From: Nitrospira sp.
GTDB lineage: Bacteria > Nitrospirota > Nitrospiria > Nitrospirales > Nitrospiraceae
NCBI GenBank assembly: GCA_020853775.1
Contig: JADYYH010000035.1
Span: forward strand, 1-64,000
Length of the DNA: 64,000 bases
Reading direction: 5' to 3'
In this document: positions 24,662-32,016 of the stretch, in pieces
Numbering within the stretch: position 1 is the first letter of the stretch
Layout: every line of letters begins with the position of its first letter
Program-made: the position numbers and the translations under genes
The notes under the pieces: generated by a model
Told to the model about the DNA's origin: nothing
Database searches by the model: none
What the model saw: the letters and a program-made list of their open reading frames with translations, nothing else

Positions 24662-26350
24662 TCAATCGAGTATGACGCGGCGCTCGACCAGTTGACCGAC
24701 TTCCGGATCATTCGAGACGAATACAGTCGACCAGGGCTCCTCTTTAGAGCAGAGCCTTCGCAGGAGCGTCAGTCGCACGGTCGGGTCGATATTGTGAAGA
24801 CTGCCGTTGAAAATCAGCAATTCCGGCCGGGTCACAATCATTCTAGCCAGAAGAATGCGAAGTACCTGGCTGCGGCTCAAATTCGCCCCGTTCCCGTGCA
24901 CGAGCGTTTCCAAGCCCTGGGGCAGCGCGTCGATTTCCTCCTCCAGCTCCACGAATCGGAGCGCCCAGCTCACATCGGCAAACTGAATTGACGGGCGCTG
25001 GAGCGTGATGTTTTCTTCCAGTGTCCCATCGAACAACGTGGGGTGGGAATCCAGCATCAAGCCACGGCAGCGATTCACATAGTTAAGCGACACGTCGCGC
25101 AGGTCGATGTCGTTGTAACGGATCACCCCGCTGGTGGGATGATAGAGGCCGGCCAGGAGAAGTGCGAGCGACGTTTTGCTTGTGCTCGTGCCCGTGAGCA
25201 CCGTGATCTTTTCGCCCGGCAGCACTTCCAGGTTGAAATGATCGAACAGCATCGGGCCGTCCGAGCCGGCAAAAGACACGTCTTTGCATGTCAGACGGAC
25301 TCCCTGCAGGGTGGGATTGGGAAGCCAGGCGGCGATCGGACCGGAGACCTCTTCCTTCGGCATGTCGAACAGCGCGGAGAGCTCCTGCAGTGAGGTGGCG
25401 ACATAGATGGCGGCGTACATGCGCCGGGCGACGACGTCGAGGTTGAGCAGCAGGGTGCCGACAATGACTTCCGCCGCCACGAACTGGCCGAGGGTAATAT
25501 CCGCCAGTGACAGCAACCATCCGCCGAGGCCGATCATGCCGCTGTGGGCGAAGGCCTGAAAGATGACCGCACTCTTATACTGAGCCCCGCTCAAAATATC
25601 GGAGCGGGTCTTCCTCGCCATGACATAGGCTTGCACCAGGGCATCGGTTTTCTTGAGCAGGAGGGGCAGGCTGTCGGTAGATTTGAAATGGAGCCGGTTG
25701 ATGCCGATGTCCTGCAACCAGTGAAACGTCTGGTAGTGGAGGCTCGACACCCGTTGAGTGATACGGAGCCCTCCGCGACCAAAAAATGTCAGAAGAAAGG
25801 CAAAACCCGTCATCAGGAAGACGTTATAGCCGAGGAAGTAGGGATGGTACATGATTAGGATTGTCATGCCGATCATGCCCGACACGAACACATTGATGAG
25901 GTCCACCAGCATGGCGACCAGCGCGCGCGGCAGCAGCTCCGCTTCGATGAACGTGTTCGTATGTTGGGGAAGAAAGACGTTCTCTCGAAAACGGGGTAAC
26001 GCTTCCGTGAACGCGACAGCCAGCCGGGTATAGATCCGCTGAACCAGGATTTCTACCGCTCGTCCTTGCAAGACCCGGAATGTCCCCATCAACAGCAACG
26101 CGCCCAACATGATGGCGACGAGCGTCACGATCATGATCGGTTGGATGGCGAAGGCGAAGGTGTTGACGAGCTCCTGCACGGTGAGCGGTACGATCAACGC
26201 AAACAGTCCGATCACGACGGCATAGGAGGCGATGATCGCCAGAATGCGCCGCTCAAGTCCGATGAGGAGATTGAGACGGGAAAGTATCGTCCAGGCTGAA
26301 GGGGTGGTGATCGTGGTTTCGGTGGCGTTGTGATTCACGCGAGGACTCAT
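24662..26350 (-). CDS. ABC exporter half-transporter with degenerate ATPase domain (second of pair)
   Basis: A 562-residue protein with an ABC exporter membrane domain (about residues 25-320, six helices) fused to a nucleotide-binding domain. Every catalytic motif of that domain is changed. Walker A is TGTSTSKT, with all three glycines lost and Lys392 kept. The Q-loop position reads SHPTLF, the signature is LSRSQ, Walker B plus catalytic Glu is LLIFNGS, and the switch His is Asn in VSNDP. The fold is otherwise retained (GTLEENI, ARMIVTRPELLIF). ATP hydrolysis by the usual mechanism is unlikely. It lies 130 bp from its paralogue and probably pairs with it. Confidence 0.85.
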   Translation of the reverse strand: MSPRVNHNATETTITTPSAWTILSRLNLLIGLERRILAIIASYAVVIGLFALIVPLTVQELVNTFAFAIQPIMIVTLVAIMLGALLLMGTFRVLQGRAVEILVQRIYTRLAVAFTEALPRFRENVFLPQHTNTFIEAELLPRALVAMLVDLINVFVSGMIGMTILIMYHPYFLGYNVFLMTGFAFLLTFFGRGGLRITQRVSSLHYQTFHWLQDIGINRLHFKSTDSLPLLLKKTDALVQAYVMARKTRSDILSGAQYKSAVIFQAFAHSGMIGLGGWLLSLADITLGQFVAAEVIVGTLLLNLDVVARRMYAAIYVATSLQELSALFDMPKEEVSGPIAAWLPNPTLQGVRLTCKDVSFAGSDGPMLFDHFNLEVLPGEKITVLTGTSTSKTSLALLLAGLYHPTSGVIRYNDIDLRDVSLNYVNRCRGLMLDSHPTLFDGTLEENITLQRPSIQFADVSWALRFVELEEEIDALPQGLETLVHGNGANLSRSQVLRILLARMIVTRPELLIFNGSLHNIDPTVRLTLLRRLCSKEEPWSTVFVSNDPEVGQLVERRVILD

Positions 26351-26480
26351 GTCGGCCGATGGTGGGGCGCAGTGTGGGCGAATGCCGCATCGCTGTCAAG
26401 GACGGGACGCATGGTGGTCGGGCAGTGGAGGGAAAAGCGAAAGTCCCAGTCCAGTGGCCTGGTGACGCTGCGGCATGCCG

Positions 26481-28148
26481 TCAATTCAGCATGATTCGGC
26501 GATCGACATGCGGAGTCAGATTCGGATCGTTCGAGACGAAGATGACCGACCAGGGTTCTTCTTTGCTGCACAGGCGGCGGAGAATCGTCTCCCGCATCGC
26601 GGGGTGCATATTGTGAAGAATGCCTTCGAATATGAGGAGCTGCGGGCGTCCCAGGATCGCTCGCGCCACCAGGATGCGCACGATGTGTGTCGGGGCGAAG
26701 ATTTTGCCGGCGGACCGCACATGCGTTTTCAGGCCGTAGGGAAGGGCATCGACTTCTTCTTCCAGTTCGGTGAAGCGCAGCGCCCATCGCACATCGCTAT
26801 AAGGGATGTATTCCCGGCCCAGCACGATGTTTTCTTCCAGCGTTCCCTCGAACAAGGACAGTTGTGAATCCAGGATGAATCCTCTGAAGCGATTGACGGA
26901 ATCCAGATTGAGGTGGCGAAGATCGACGCCGTTGTAGCGGATCACGCCCGCCGTGGGTGATTCGAGTCCGCCGAGCACGCGGGCCAGCGCGGTTTTGGCC
27001 ATCGTCGTGTCCGCATAAATGCCGATTTTTTCACCCGGCGTCACTTCCAGGTTGAAGTGCTCAAACACGGGCGGGCCGCCGGCTGGCGCAAAGGTGAGGT
27101 CTTTGCACGTGACTCGAATGCCGTGCACCGTCGGATCGGGCAAGGGAATAGACAGTGTGGCCGCGTCCTGATCTTTGGGCAGCGAAAAGAGGAAACTCAA
27201 TTCGGTCAAGGCGGTGAGGAAATAATAGATATGTCCCATGCGCTTGACGACGCCGTCGAAGCTGGAGAGGATGCCGCTCACCACGACTTCCGCCGCGACG
27301 AATTGTCCGAGCGTCAACTGGCCGATTCCCAGGAGCCAGCCTGCCGTTGCGATGAGACCGCTGTGGACGATCGCCTGCCATCCGAGCGATCCGAGATACT
27401 GCCGGATAAGGATTCCGAAGCGGGTTCTGCGGACCCCGACATAGGTATCCAGGAGCTGGTCCGTCTTTTTGATCAGCAGCGCCTGGCTATCAGTGGATTT
27501 TAAGTGGAGCAGGTTGTACGCAATTTCCTGAAACCAGTGCAGGGTGTCGTATTTGGCGTGTGACATGGCCATGTCGGCCTTCAGACCGCCATGGCTCATG
27601 AGGAAAAATACCACGTTGAATCCCACCAGCAGGATGGCATTAAACAGCAAGAAGTACGGGTGATAGAACACGAGGATCGTCATGCCGACCGCCCCGCCCA
27701 CGATCACGTTGATCAGATCGACCAGCAGGACCGACACAGCCCGCTGCATGAGAATGGTTTCGACGAAGTAATTGGCATACCGAGGCTTGAACCCCTGATA
27801 GCGTAAATGCGGCAGCTGCTGGGCCATGGCAATGGCCACCCGGGCGAAGATGCGCCGCTCCAGCACTTCCACTGCATAGTATTGGAGGGCTCGGAAGGCG
27901 CCGACAAAGAGCAGGCCCGCGACCATGACGGCGGCTAGGGTGACAATGGTGATGGGTTGGAGCGCGAAGGCGAAAGTGTTGACGAGTTCTTGAACCGTGA
28001 GAGGAACGATCAGCGAGAAGAGCCCGATGGCGATCGAATAGGAGACGATGAGGCCGAGGATGCGCCGTTCGAGACGAAACAGGAGACCCAGATGGCCGAC
28101 GACCGCTTGGAACAGATTGCTCTGGTTGTCGGAATGATCCTGGGCCAT
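26481..28148 (-). CDS. ABC exporter half-transporter with degenerate ATPase domain (first of pair)
   Basis: This 555-residue paralogue has the same layout as the next gene and shares long segments with it (GLFSLIVPLTVQELVNTFAF, GQLTLGQFVAAEVVV, LLRRLCSKEEPW-like). Its ATPase domain is equally degenerate but by different residues: Walker A ADTTMAKT with Lys385, Q-loop SQLSLF, signature region FAPTH, Walker B LLIFEGI and switch VSNDP. Independent replacements at the same sites with both genes intact suggest selection for a non-hydrolysing pair rather than decay. An upstream TolC and HlyD-like pair makes this a type-I-secretion-like set. Confidence 0.85.
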   Translation of the reverse strand: MAQDHSDNQSNLFQAVVGHLGLLFRLERRILGLIVSYSIAIGLFSLIVPLTVQELVNTFAFALQPITIVTLAAVMVAGLLFVGAFRALQYYAVEVLERRIFARVAIAMAQQLPHLRYQGFKPRYANYFVETILMQRAVSVLLVDLINVIVGGAVGMTILVFYHPYFLLFNAILLVGFNVVFFLMSHGGLKADMAMSHAKYDTLHWFQEIAYNLLHLKSTDSQALLIKKTDQLLDTYVGVRRTRFGILIRQYLGSLGWQAIVHSGLIATAGWLLGIGQLTLGQFVAAEVVVSGILSSFDGVVKRMGHIYYFLTALTELSFLFSLPKDQDAATLSIPLPDPTVHGIRVTCKDLTFAPAGGPPVFEHFNLEVTPGEKIGIYADTTMAKTALARVLGGLESPTAGVIRYNGVDLRHLNLDSVNRFRGFILDSQLSLFEGTLEENIVLGREYIPYSDVRWALRFTELEEEVDALPYGLKTHVRSAGKIFAPTHIVRILVARAILGRPQLLIFEGILHNMHPAMRETILRRLCSKEEPWSVIFVSNDPNLTPHVDRRIMLN

Positions 28149-29853: not shown

Positions 29854-31302
29854 TTACTTGGCCCCGCGACCGGCTTTCGGCAGGAGAGTATCGATCAGGC
29901 TTGGAGGCCGTTCCTGGTAGTCGGGCGGAAAGAGATTGAACCGGCGCCAGAGCTCGTACCAAAGCGGGACGCGATTGAGAATGACCCATCCCATGGCTTT
30001 GGTTCCCTGCCGGACATGTTCTTGCGGAGGCCAGGGGCGTTCTTCCAGATCGGGGACGACCCAGAAGCGGAAATTCCCCTTGCCGTCATCGACCTGGTCG
30101 ATAACCTTGATCACCCCGTTGTACGTGCCGGCCATCATTTCCGGCCAGGCCGGCAGCGGGATGGCGGGGATGCCATAGAACAGAATCTTGACCTTTCGGC
30201 CCACATTGAGCAGCGGGGCGTCGATGCCGTCCGCTACCATTTCGATTGCCCGGTCCGTGCTATTGGGCGAAATTCGGACGAGTTTTTCACCGGGCCGCAC
30301 GGTTTCGCCGGCGCCCGCCTGCGCCATCTTCACGACCGTACCGTCAATGGGCGAGATAATCCGGCTGGCGACCCGCCGCTGGTTGGCATTGGAAAGACGT
30401 AAAGAGACATCCGCGACTTGATCGGCGGCGCGCGCCGCTTCGCCGATGGAGGCATCCCGCGCCGCTTCGGCGTCAAGGAGTCGTTGCAGGACTTCTGCGC
30501 TGACCTGTTCCCGTCCGAAACTCAAGGCCTTCATGCCCTGTTCGGCGGCGGCCAGGTTGGCTTGTGCCCCCTGCAGATCTGCCTTGCTGGCGATGGCGGC
30601 TTGAATCGTGAGTTCCAACTCGCGCTGGGAAACGAGCCCCTGCTGCGCCAGTTGTTGATGCCGTTCCACGTTGAGTTCAGCCGTGGCGACAGCGATTTTC
30701 GACGCCTCGATTTTTTGCCGTGCCTCACGCACTTTGCTTTCGGCTTCGAGCACACGCGCGCCCGCCGACGGCACCGCAGCCTTCACCAGGTTCTGCATTT
30801 CCTTGATGCGTTTATCGAGCTGATCGGCGCGACTGAGGGCGGCCTTCCGCGTATCTTCCAGCGCCTGCTTGCGCTGTTCGAGTAGGTTCAAGAGATCCGG
30901 AGCCATGAAGTTTGGGTCGTAGTCGTCGAGTTCGAGAATCACGTCGCCCGCTTTGACCCGCACGCCTTCGAAGATATGCCACTTTCTGATGCGGCCGGTA
31001 ATCTGCGCTTCGATGTCCTGCGGGCGTTCAAAAGGAGTGTAGGCGGACAGTTGGCCGGTGACTGTAATGGTTTGGGTCCAGGGGACGAAGGCTACAATCA
31101 GCATGAAGAAGCCGACCAGGAGGATGGCCAGCCGTGAGGAAAACCGAAGCCGTTCGGGGATTTGGACGGCTTCCCAGGACTGCAGCTTGGTCGACGTCGC
31201 CAGATCATCGACGGCCATTTCGTCCAAGCCCGTGCGCTGGGTGACGAGGGAGCGGAATCGGGTTTTAAGTCCCTCACGGATACGCTGCACGTAACCCTCC
31301 AC
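29854..31302 (-). CDS. HlyD-like periplasmic adaptor protein
   Basis: Started at the GTG ending at 31302, with AGGGGA six bases upstream, the protein has 482 residues; the frame is open to an ATG at 31479, which would overlap purE. A cytoplasmic N-terminus of about 65 residues is followed by one membrane helix (LAILLVGFFMLIVAFVPW), a lipoyl/barrel segment (GQLSAYTPFERPQDIEAQIT), a long coiled-coil hairpin and a C-terminal return (IISPIDGTVVKMAQAGAGET). It should bridge the inner-membrane ABC pair and TolC. The N-terminal end is uncertain. Confidence 0.85.
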   Translation of the reverse strand: MEGYVQRIREGLKTRFRSLVTQRTGLDEMAVDDLATSTKLQSWEAVQIPERLRFSSRLAILLVGFFMLIVAFVPWTQTITVTGQLSAYTPFERPQDIEAQITGRIRKWHIFEGVRVKAGDVILELDDYDPNFMAPDLLNLLEQRKQALEDTRKAALSRADQLDKRIKEMQNLVKAAVPSAGARVLEAESKVREARQKIEASKIAVATAELNVERHQQLAQQGLVSQRELELTIQAAIASKADLQGAQANLAAAEQGMKALSFGREQVSAEVLQRLLDAEAARDASIGEAARAADQVADVSLRLSNANQRRVASRIISPIDGTVVKMAQAGAGETVRPGEKLVRISPNSTDRAIEMVADGIDAPLLNVGRKVKILFYGIPAIPLPAWPEMMAGTYNGVIKVIDQVDDGKGNFRFWVVPDLEERPWPPQEHVRQGTKAMGWVILNRVPLWYELWRRFNLFPPDYQERPPSLIDTLLPKAGRGAK

Positions 31303-31461
31303 GCACCGTCCCCTGTAGGGATGCGCAGACGTATCATAGTGGAAGACAAAGGAGTTGGTCAATTCAATGAGGGGTTCCGTCGTGCCTTGGCTTGACCCTT
31401 CGACCGGAGACGGGCTATGGTTCGCCGCATCATTCTTTCCTTCAGCCAGAGGTGTTGGTCC

Positions 31462-32016
31462 ATGCCGAAGAACAAGCATGCGGATCGGGCGTTGGTCGGG
31501 GTCTTGGGCGGCAGCACATCAGACTTTCCCATTCTGGAGAAGGCCGTGGCTCTGTTGAACGAGCTCGGGATTCCCAATGAGTTGCTCGTGGTGTCGGCCC
31601 ATCGCACCCCGGACCGTCTCTTTGTCTATGCGGAACAGGCTGTGGAGCGAGGGATTCAAGTCATCATTGCCGGCGCCGGCGGCGCGGCCCATTTGCCGGG
31701 AATGGTCGCGGCCAAGACGTTGTTACCGGTCATCGGCGTGCCTATTCCCACCGAACATCTCCGCGGCCTCGATTCCCTTCTGTCGATTGTTCAGATGCCC
31801 CGAGGAATTCCGGTGGCGACAGTTGCTATCGGGGGTGCGGAAAATGCGGCCATCCTGGCAGCGCAAATTCTGGGATTGCAGTCCGCTTCTATCAGGCAGC
31901 GCCTCGAACGATTCCGTGCCGCGCAAACACAAAAGGTGCTCGATTCTCAGGATGACGCCCGGTTGTCCCCTGTCTTCCCGATTCCACGCCGTGCCAGGAC
32001 GAGCCGCAGGCCGTGA
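31462..32016 (+). CDS. purE: N5-carboxyaminoimidazole ribonucleotide mutase
   Basis: This 184-residue protein, ATG at 31462 with AGAGG eight bases upstream, has class I PurE motifs: [26 protein letters not shown] with the active-site His, and [17 protein letters not shown]. It converts N5-CAIR to CAIR in purine synthesis. The last 25 residues are a basic extension past the usual end. The stop overlaps the purK GTG start (GTGA), so purE and purK form an operon. Confidence 0.95.

Follow-up and report, generated by a model that had tools for sequence, protein, structure and literature searches.

We observe that two neighboring half-exporters of a Nitrospira-type genome, ABC-A and ABC-B, belong to a clade that combines the fold of HlyB and PCAT1 with a dead ATPase. 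In our best reading, held at a probability of roughly 0.6, they form with an HlyD-type adaptor and a TolC-type channel an envelope complex resembling a type I secretion system (T1SS), in which the membrane domain (TMD) would be working and no ATP would be hydrolyzed. Sequence comparison documents the motif losses in the ATPase domain (NBD), their conservation throughout the family, purifying selection, the operon linkage, and the existence of members that have no NBD.

The window, the whole 64,000-nucleotide stretch of DNA that was analyzed, is part of a 72-kb contig in a genome of 4.25 Mb. It contains a minus-strand run of five genes with spacings of 77 to 131 bp, listed here in gene order:

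29854-31479, minus strand: HlyD-type periplasmic adaptor, first gene of the run; Pfam HlyD_3, 6e-8; listed open reading frame of 541 aa
28280-29776, minus strand: TolC-type outer-membrane channel, 498 aa; Pfam OEP, 6e-31
26481-28148, minus strand: ABC-A, half-exporter, 555 aa; TMD at about residues 1 to 340, motif-less NBD at residues 342 to 555; ABC_tran, 28.9 bits
24662-26350, minus strand: ABC-B, second half-exporter, 562 aa, with the same losses as ABC-A; ABC_tran, 39.5 bits
23782-24582, minus strand: 4HB_MCP-type membrane protein; Pfam 4HB_MCP_1, 2e-9; no signaling domain

Both half-exporter genes lie exactly where the original prediction had placed them, and the OEP and HlyD_3 matches bear out the TolC and HlyD-like genes that it had seen upstream. 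ABC-B is a paralog of ABC-A (54% identity). Synteny identifies the 4HB_MCP gene as the conserved next gene downstream of A or B in Nitrospiraceae, and it is missing outside this family. The adaptor scores 77 bits against TIGR01843, below the cut-off of 208.65, and its orthologs are 478 to 541 aa long. Since the longest HlyD reading frame overlaps the divergent purE gene (31417-31479) and the next Met is residue 88, the real start probably lies downstream of the listed one.

Motif losses and selection in ABC-A and ABC-B

Alignment of A and B to five intact exporters of the same genome located the following degenerate elements:

26991-27014, minus strand: ABC-A, degenerate Walker A ADTTMAKT, residues 379 to 386
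26685-26699, minus strand: ABC-A, degenerate signature FAPTH, from the alignment to the intact exporters
26622-26639, minus strand: ABC-A, degenerate Walker B LLIFEG, Gly at the position of the catalytic Glu
26526-26540, minus strand: ABC-A, H-loop FVSND, His replaced by Asn
25172-25195, minus strand: ABC-B, degenerate Walker A TGTSTSKT, residues 386 to 393
24803-24820, minus strand: ABC-B, degenerate Walker B LLIFNG, Gly at the position of the catalytic Glu

The three Walker A glycines read A/T/A in A and T/S/S in B, the Walker B Asp has become Glu (FEG in A) or Asn (FNG in B), and LSGGQ is absent from both. The other strings of B are MLDSH, LSRSQ, and FVSND, and the Q-loop region of A reads ILDSQ. 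The A-loop aromatic is apparently gone too (TFAPA / SFAGS in A and B versus FAYP in relatives). In this alignment, neither A nor B supplies Walker A and B with the catalytic Glu, or LSGGQ, for a canonical composite site. The motif strings had originally been read correctly to the residue, including the Walker A Lys that survives in each protein. The accompanying statement that every catalytic motif was lost holds for the glycines, the Walker B Asp, the Glu, the signature, and the H-loop His, but is slightly too strong, since the P-loop Lys and the following Thr are kept in both A and B. The reported replacement of the Q-loop Gln by Ser depends on the alignment, as the family has one additional residue here (ILDSQ versus VLQ-E), and in A the next position is a Gln.

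A strict Walker A pattern is present in 52 of the 57 ABC_tran fragments of this genome, indicating that the losses in A and B are not due to chance. The five exceptions are A, B, a paralog on another contig (C15), a near-consensus GPSRAGKS, and one fragment that covers the C-terminal domain part only. The C15 paralog (L059:7533-9224), a third motor-dead protein of the same genome, is solitary, adjoins glycosyltransferase-like genes, and has no HlyD or TolC gene beside it.

With respect to selection, each of the 28 congeners examined has A, which in one of them is divided between contigs, and the gene is in frame in all but one MAG, which carries a single TAG (G010); Nitrospira records match A at 92 to 99% identity. 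Pairwise omega against orthologs is 0.013 to 0.048 for A and 0.054 to 0.093 for B, with TMD and NBD alike. The degenerate strings are themselves conserved, with FEG, FAPTH, and VSNDP found in nearly every genus member, and GTSxSKT and LSRSQ/LTRSQ conserved in B among genus members. The B-type gene is frameshifted in one genome (L067:7382-9481), and two Nitrospira genomes (L041 and L042) have A but no B. These broken or absent copies of B, and the TAG in one copy of A, are what speaks for gene decay, but the omega values of 0.01 to 0.09, frames that are intact in nearly all other genus members, and conservation across phyla refute decay for A and make it a negligible explanation for the two genes. 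The original argument against decay proved correct, the degeneracy being conserved with dN/dS well below 1, and the refuting condition that had been set with it did not arise: a search for canonical-motif orthologs in close relatives found none. Furthermore, in A the constraint on the NBD equals that on the TMD, which argues that the NBD has some job in Nitrospira.

A family with a conserved membrane domain and a dispensable ATPase domain

Matches at E 1e-70 occur in 77 of the 296 Nitrospirota genomes sampled, all from Nitrospiraceae and one further Nitrospirales family. More distant homologs (23 to 28% identity), sampled on plasmids only, come from Bacteroidota (Persicobacter, Aureibacter, and Riemerella) and Sphingomonadales, each beside HlyD and TolC genes. 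In a PMSF tree, A, B, and all homologs form one clade (support 100/100) apart from eight canonical exporters, with Bacteroidota, Sphingomonadales, and Nitrospirales as separate groups and some long branches, and with A and B as a duplication within Nitrospiraceae. Judged by this distribution, the clade is ancient and widespread. A and B are adjacent in their genus (g1), and A occurs without B in many relatives (L041, L042, and L046-L055); the degenerate heterodimer is therefore not the unit of conservation, and the obligatory pair implied by the original prediction was rejected.

A profile search over all loci returned 139 rows, comprising 136 family rows and three canonical outgroup matches. 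The H-loop His is present in none, and the catalytic Glu in two (Riemerella and Croceicoccus), of the approximately 108 to 110 family members with an NBD, and canonical exporters of this genome and of plasmids from the same searches have intact motifs. The P-loop Lys is kept in 113 of the 139 profile-hit rows and in most Nitrospiraceae members, and three paralogs (L061, L063, and L073) retain both GK[ST] and the Asp of Walker B. In sphingomonads and in one family (f3) the P-loop is gone, with Lys replaced by Arg in f3 and in most sphingomonad members, and one sphingomonad protein is no longer matched as ABC_tran by Pfam. Across the family, this pattern reads as a stepwise dismantling of the motor. 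As the Lys is kept in most Nitrospiraceae members, and L061 has TGKST together with the Walker B Asp, some of these NBDs may still bind nucleotide.

Gene content also varies around the core. Two loci (L076:3464-8327 and L146:3116-7888) have three tandem TolC-like genes before A and HlyD, the first of them at the same chromosomal site as the window locus (agmatinase ... purEK). The Persicobacter members (L077:5572-5980 and L081:5566-5980) carry an additional N-terminal stretch of about 130 aa, which, judged by eye, may represent the remains of a C39-like (CLD) domain such as HlyB has.

Three MAGs of a single f3 genus (G080, G082, and G096) encode a protein of 337 to 346 aa that stops after the TMD, at loci with the order LysR|HlyD-TolC-TMD. 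There is no NBD remnant in any frame at these loci and the next gene lies 46 to 494 bp downstream, so a frameshift origin was rejected. Provision of the NBD by another family gene was also rejected: the three genomes contain no such gene, and the other matches in them do not exceed 38% identity and are of canonical type. The TMD-only proteins form one nested clade, are 78 to 92% identical to one another, and evolve at omega values of 0.24 to 0.30, indicating that the NBD was lost once and that the TMD-only form was then maintained. The model of a TMD-only protein has the helices of an exporter and weakly matches ComA, HlyB, and PCAT1.

The balance of conservation between the two domains is likewise unusual with respect to canonical exporters, in which the NBD/TMD identity ratio is 2.08 (range, 1.49 to 2.73); within groups of the family it is 1.00 in Nitrospirales, 0.57 in Bacteroidota, and 0.73 in Sphingomonadales. 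Across phyla, constraint is strongest within the membrane domain (Q53, H163, Q250, Q282, and E287), and the NBD has family-specific invariant residues of its own (G509, H512, W533, and D541). Two of the membrane positions stand in family-wide motifs:

27651-27665, minus strand: ABC-A, TM4, YHPYF with His163; YH in 134 of the 139 profile-hit rows (three canonical outgroups included)
27288-27308, minus strand: ABC-A, TM6, GQFVAAE with Glu287 (GQxVAxE); 134 of the 139 profile-hit rows (three canonical outgroups included)

Both residues are absent from canonical exporters. Glu287 is replaced by Gln in two family rows (L076-type lineage) and His163 by Ser in L069, exceptions that weaken a strict proton-relay reading. 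His163 and Glu287 might belong to an ion pathway or might contact HlyD, and the data favor neither.

The AlphaFold2 model of A has a mean pLDDT of 75, with about 90 in the NBD and less than 50 in parts of the TMD, and predicts an intact NBD fold despite the dead site. Its best Foldseek matches are PCAT1 (8vox, 2e-20) and the HlyB-HlyD complex (8dck, 9e-20), and it matches exporters generally with VIA Z scores of 24 to 26; the structure models rest on Nitrospirales sequences only.

Neighborhood of the operon

In f3, the operon is accompanied by a divergently oriented LysR gene that is NhaR-like (above the NCBIfam cut-off). A DAB inorganic-carbon pump (DabB, a companion, DabA, and P-II) follows directly after the operon on the same strand in the TMD-only genomes. 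In a further genome (G084), the same NhaR-like regulator faces DabB-DabA-P-II, which is followed on that strand by HlyD-TolC-A. Four loci (L072:4444-11731, L075:8352-15736, L136:997-8744, and L148:413-10772) join HlyD-TolC-(TMD or A) to DAB under one NhaR-like LysR, in two gene orders. A second phylum with a DAB link is represented by the Sphingobium plasmid pHAL16 (L085:173-4475), where DabA (DUF2309) lies 43 bp upstream of the family ABC gene; among the best 60 of 123 plasmid DabA records, only this one was also among the adaptor matches listed, and the DAB link may be due to chance. The linkage is absent in most f3 members and in the window; DabA is elsewhere in the genome. DAB is described as driven by the PMF (PMC13144422). 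The DAB and NhaR linkage suggests a role of the family in carbon, pH, or ion physiology. A bicarbonate link through neighboring purE/purK (window) or PEP carboxylase (Persicobacter) was set aside, as either could be chance.

Possible mode of action and relation to known systems

In the reading that we prefer, an HlyB-like TMD platform would span the envelope together with HlyD and TolC and would conduct something, with opening or drive independent of ATP, perhaps through the action of an ion gradient on His163 and Glu287 in the membrane, or passively. In Nitrospira the NBD would be kept under selection for another job (dimerization or assembly, docking, or gating), and one related lineage would have discarded it. 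The original prediction of a non-ATP export machine or scaffold is strengthened by the natural homologs without an NBD, while the driver and transport itself are what we infer. Tentatively, one may go further and see the TMD as a secondary, ion-gradient-driven transporter or a gated HlyD-TolC conduit whose motor was dismantled stepwise and then deleted, and which serves inorganic-carbon or ion homeostasis with DAB.

The complex might instead be a sensor or scaffold and no transporter, anchoring HlyD-TolC or relaying a signal, for example from the adjacent periplasmic 4HB_MCP bundle. This would fit the 4HB_MCP gene following A or B across Nitrospiraceae, the conserved but motor-dead NBD, the solitary C15 paralog without adjoining HlyD or TolC, and the existence of ABC-fold regulators such as SUR. 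It is rather unlikely, given that the strongest cross-phylum constraint lies in the membrane domain, and that HlyD and TolC are the partners that stay constant, while 4HB_MCP does not occur beyond Nitrospiraceae. We also consider it improbable that residual nucleotide binding at the P-loop opens and closes the complex without hydrolysis. The widely kept Lys and the near-complete sites of L061, L063, and L073 would allow for such gating, but A and B have none of the three glycines and apparently no A-loop aromatic, Arg replaces the Lys in f3 and in most of the sphingomonad proteins, and three genomes have no NBD at all.

ATP hydrolysis itself could be rescued in two ways. A or B might pair in trans with a canonical half-exporter encoded elsewhere, as the genome has several intact exporters and heterodimers in which one half is dead are common (PMC7756269). 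No linked locus, however, contains a canonical partner gene, where A has a conserved neighbor this is B, which is just as dead, and the TMD-only members have no NBD to pair, which makes this explanation very unlikely. Hydrolysis through non-canonical residues, for which the invariant NBD positions of the family might be invoked, is more doubtful still, because Glu, His, signature, and P-loop glycines are missing together and the NBD is dispensable in one lineage.

The non-ATP reading places the family close to, but outside, several known systems. T1SS (HlyB-HlyD-TolC) and PCAT1/ComA share with A and B the predicted fold, the adaptor and channel partners, and the operon layout; they differ in that the NBD of A and B lacks the catalytic residues and was lost in one lineage, and that the window proteins have no C39 or CLD domain. 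The window has no obvious RTX-type or leader-peptide substrate gene among the listed neighborhood reading frames. The family has the predicted ABC-exporter fold, a HlyD-type adaptor (linked in three phyla), and a TolC-type channel; a catalytically competent ABC ATPase (Walker A/B, LSGGQ, and H-loop), the defining feature, is lacking, so it is not to be classed as a T1SS, though it may work like one. No named NCBIfam family fits either, the best scores (NHLP, LssB, and CydC exporters) all being far below cut-off.

The heterodimeric exporters TM287/288, TAP, TmrAB, and BmrCD also combine the exporter fold with degenerate NBD motifs, but have one degenerate site and a canonical second composite site (PMC7756269), whereas neither A nor B is canonical and A is often alone. 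EmrAB-TolC, which is driven by an ion gradient, offers a possible working analogy, with an HlyD-like adaptor and TolC around a non-ATP transporter; its inner-membrane part is an MFS protein and here it is an ABC-exporter TMD. CFTR and SUR likewise use the ABC fold other than as a pump, but both bind ATP, one CFTR site hydrolyzes it, and they have no HlyD or TolC. The SecA_DEAD-M50-HlyD loci, type-I-like systems with HlyD and no ABC pump that have also been reported in Nitrospirae (PMC4452313), consist of different proteins and have no ABC-fold TMD. The open-access literature searched yielded no account of exporters in which both sites are dead beside HlyD and TolC, and this lends weak support to novelty.

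An ATP motor is the defining feature of ABC exporters, and what appears to be new here is a type I secretion architecture without that motor. The loss of working ATP-motor parts throughout the family, and of the entire motor domain in one branch, suggests that the HlyD-TolC tube of A and B does not run on ATP. Among genes annotated as "ABC transporter ATP-binding protein" beside HlyD and TolC, one class is thus probably not ATPases. A dead-motor family that spans phyla and includes members without an NBD is a natural experiment on what the membrane domain is capable of alone.
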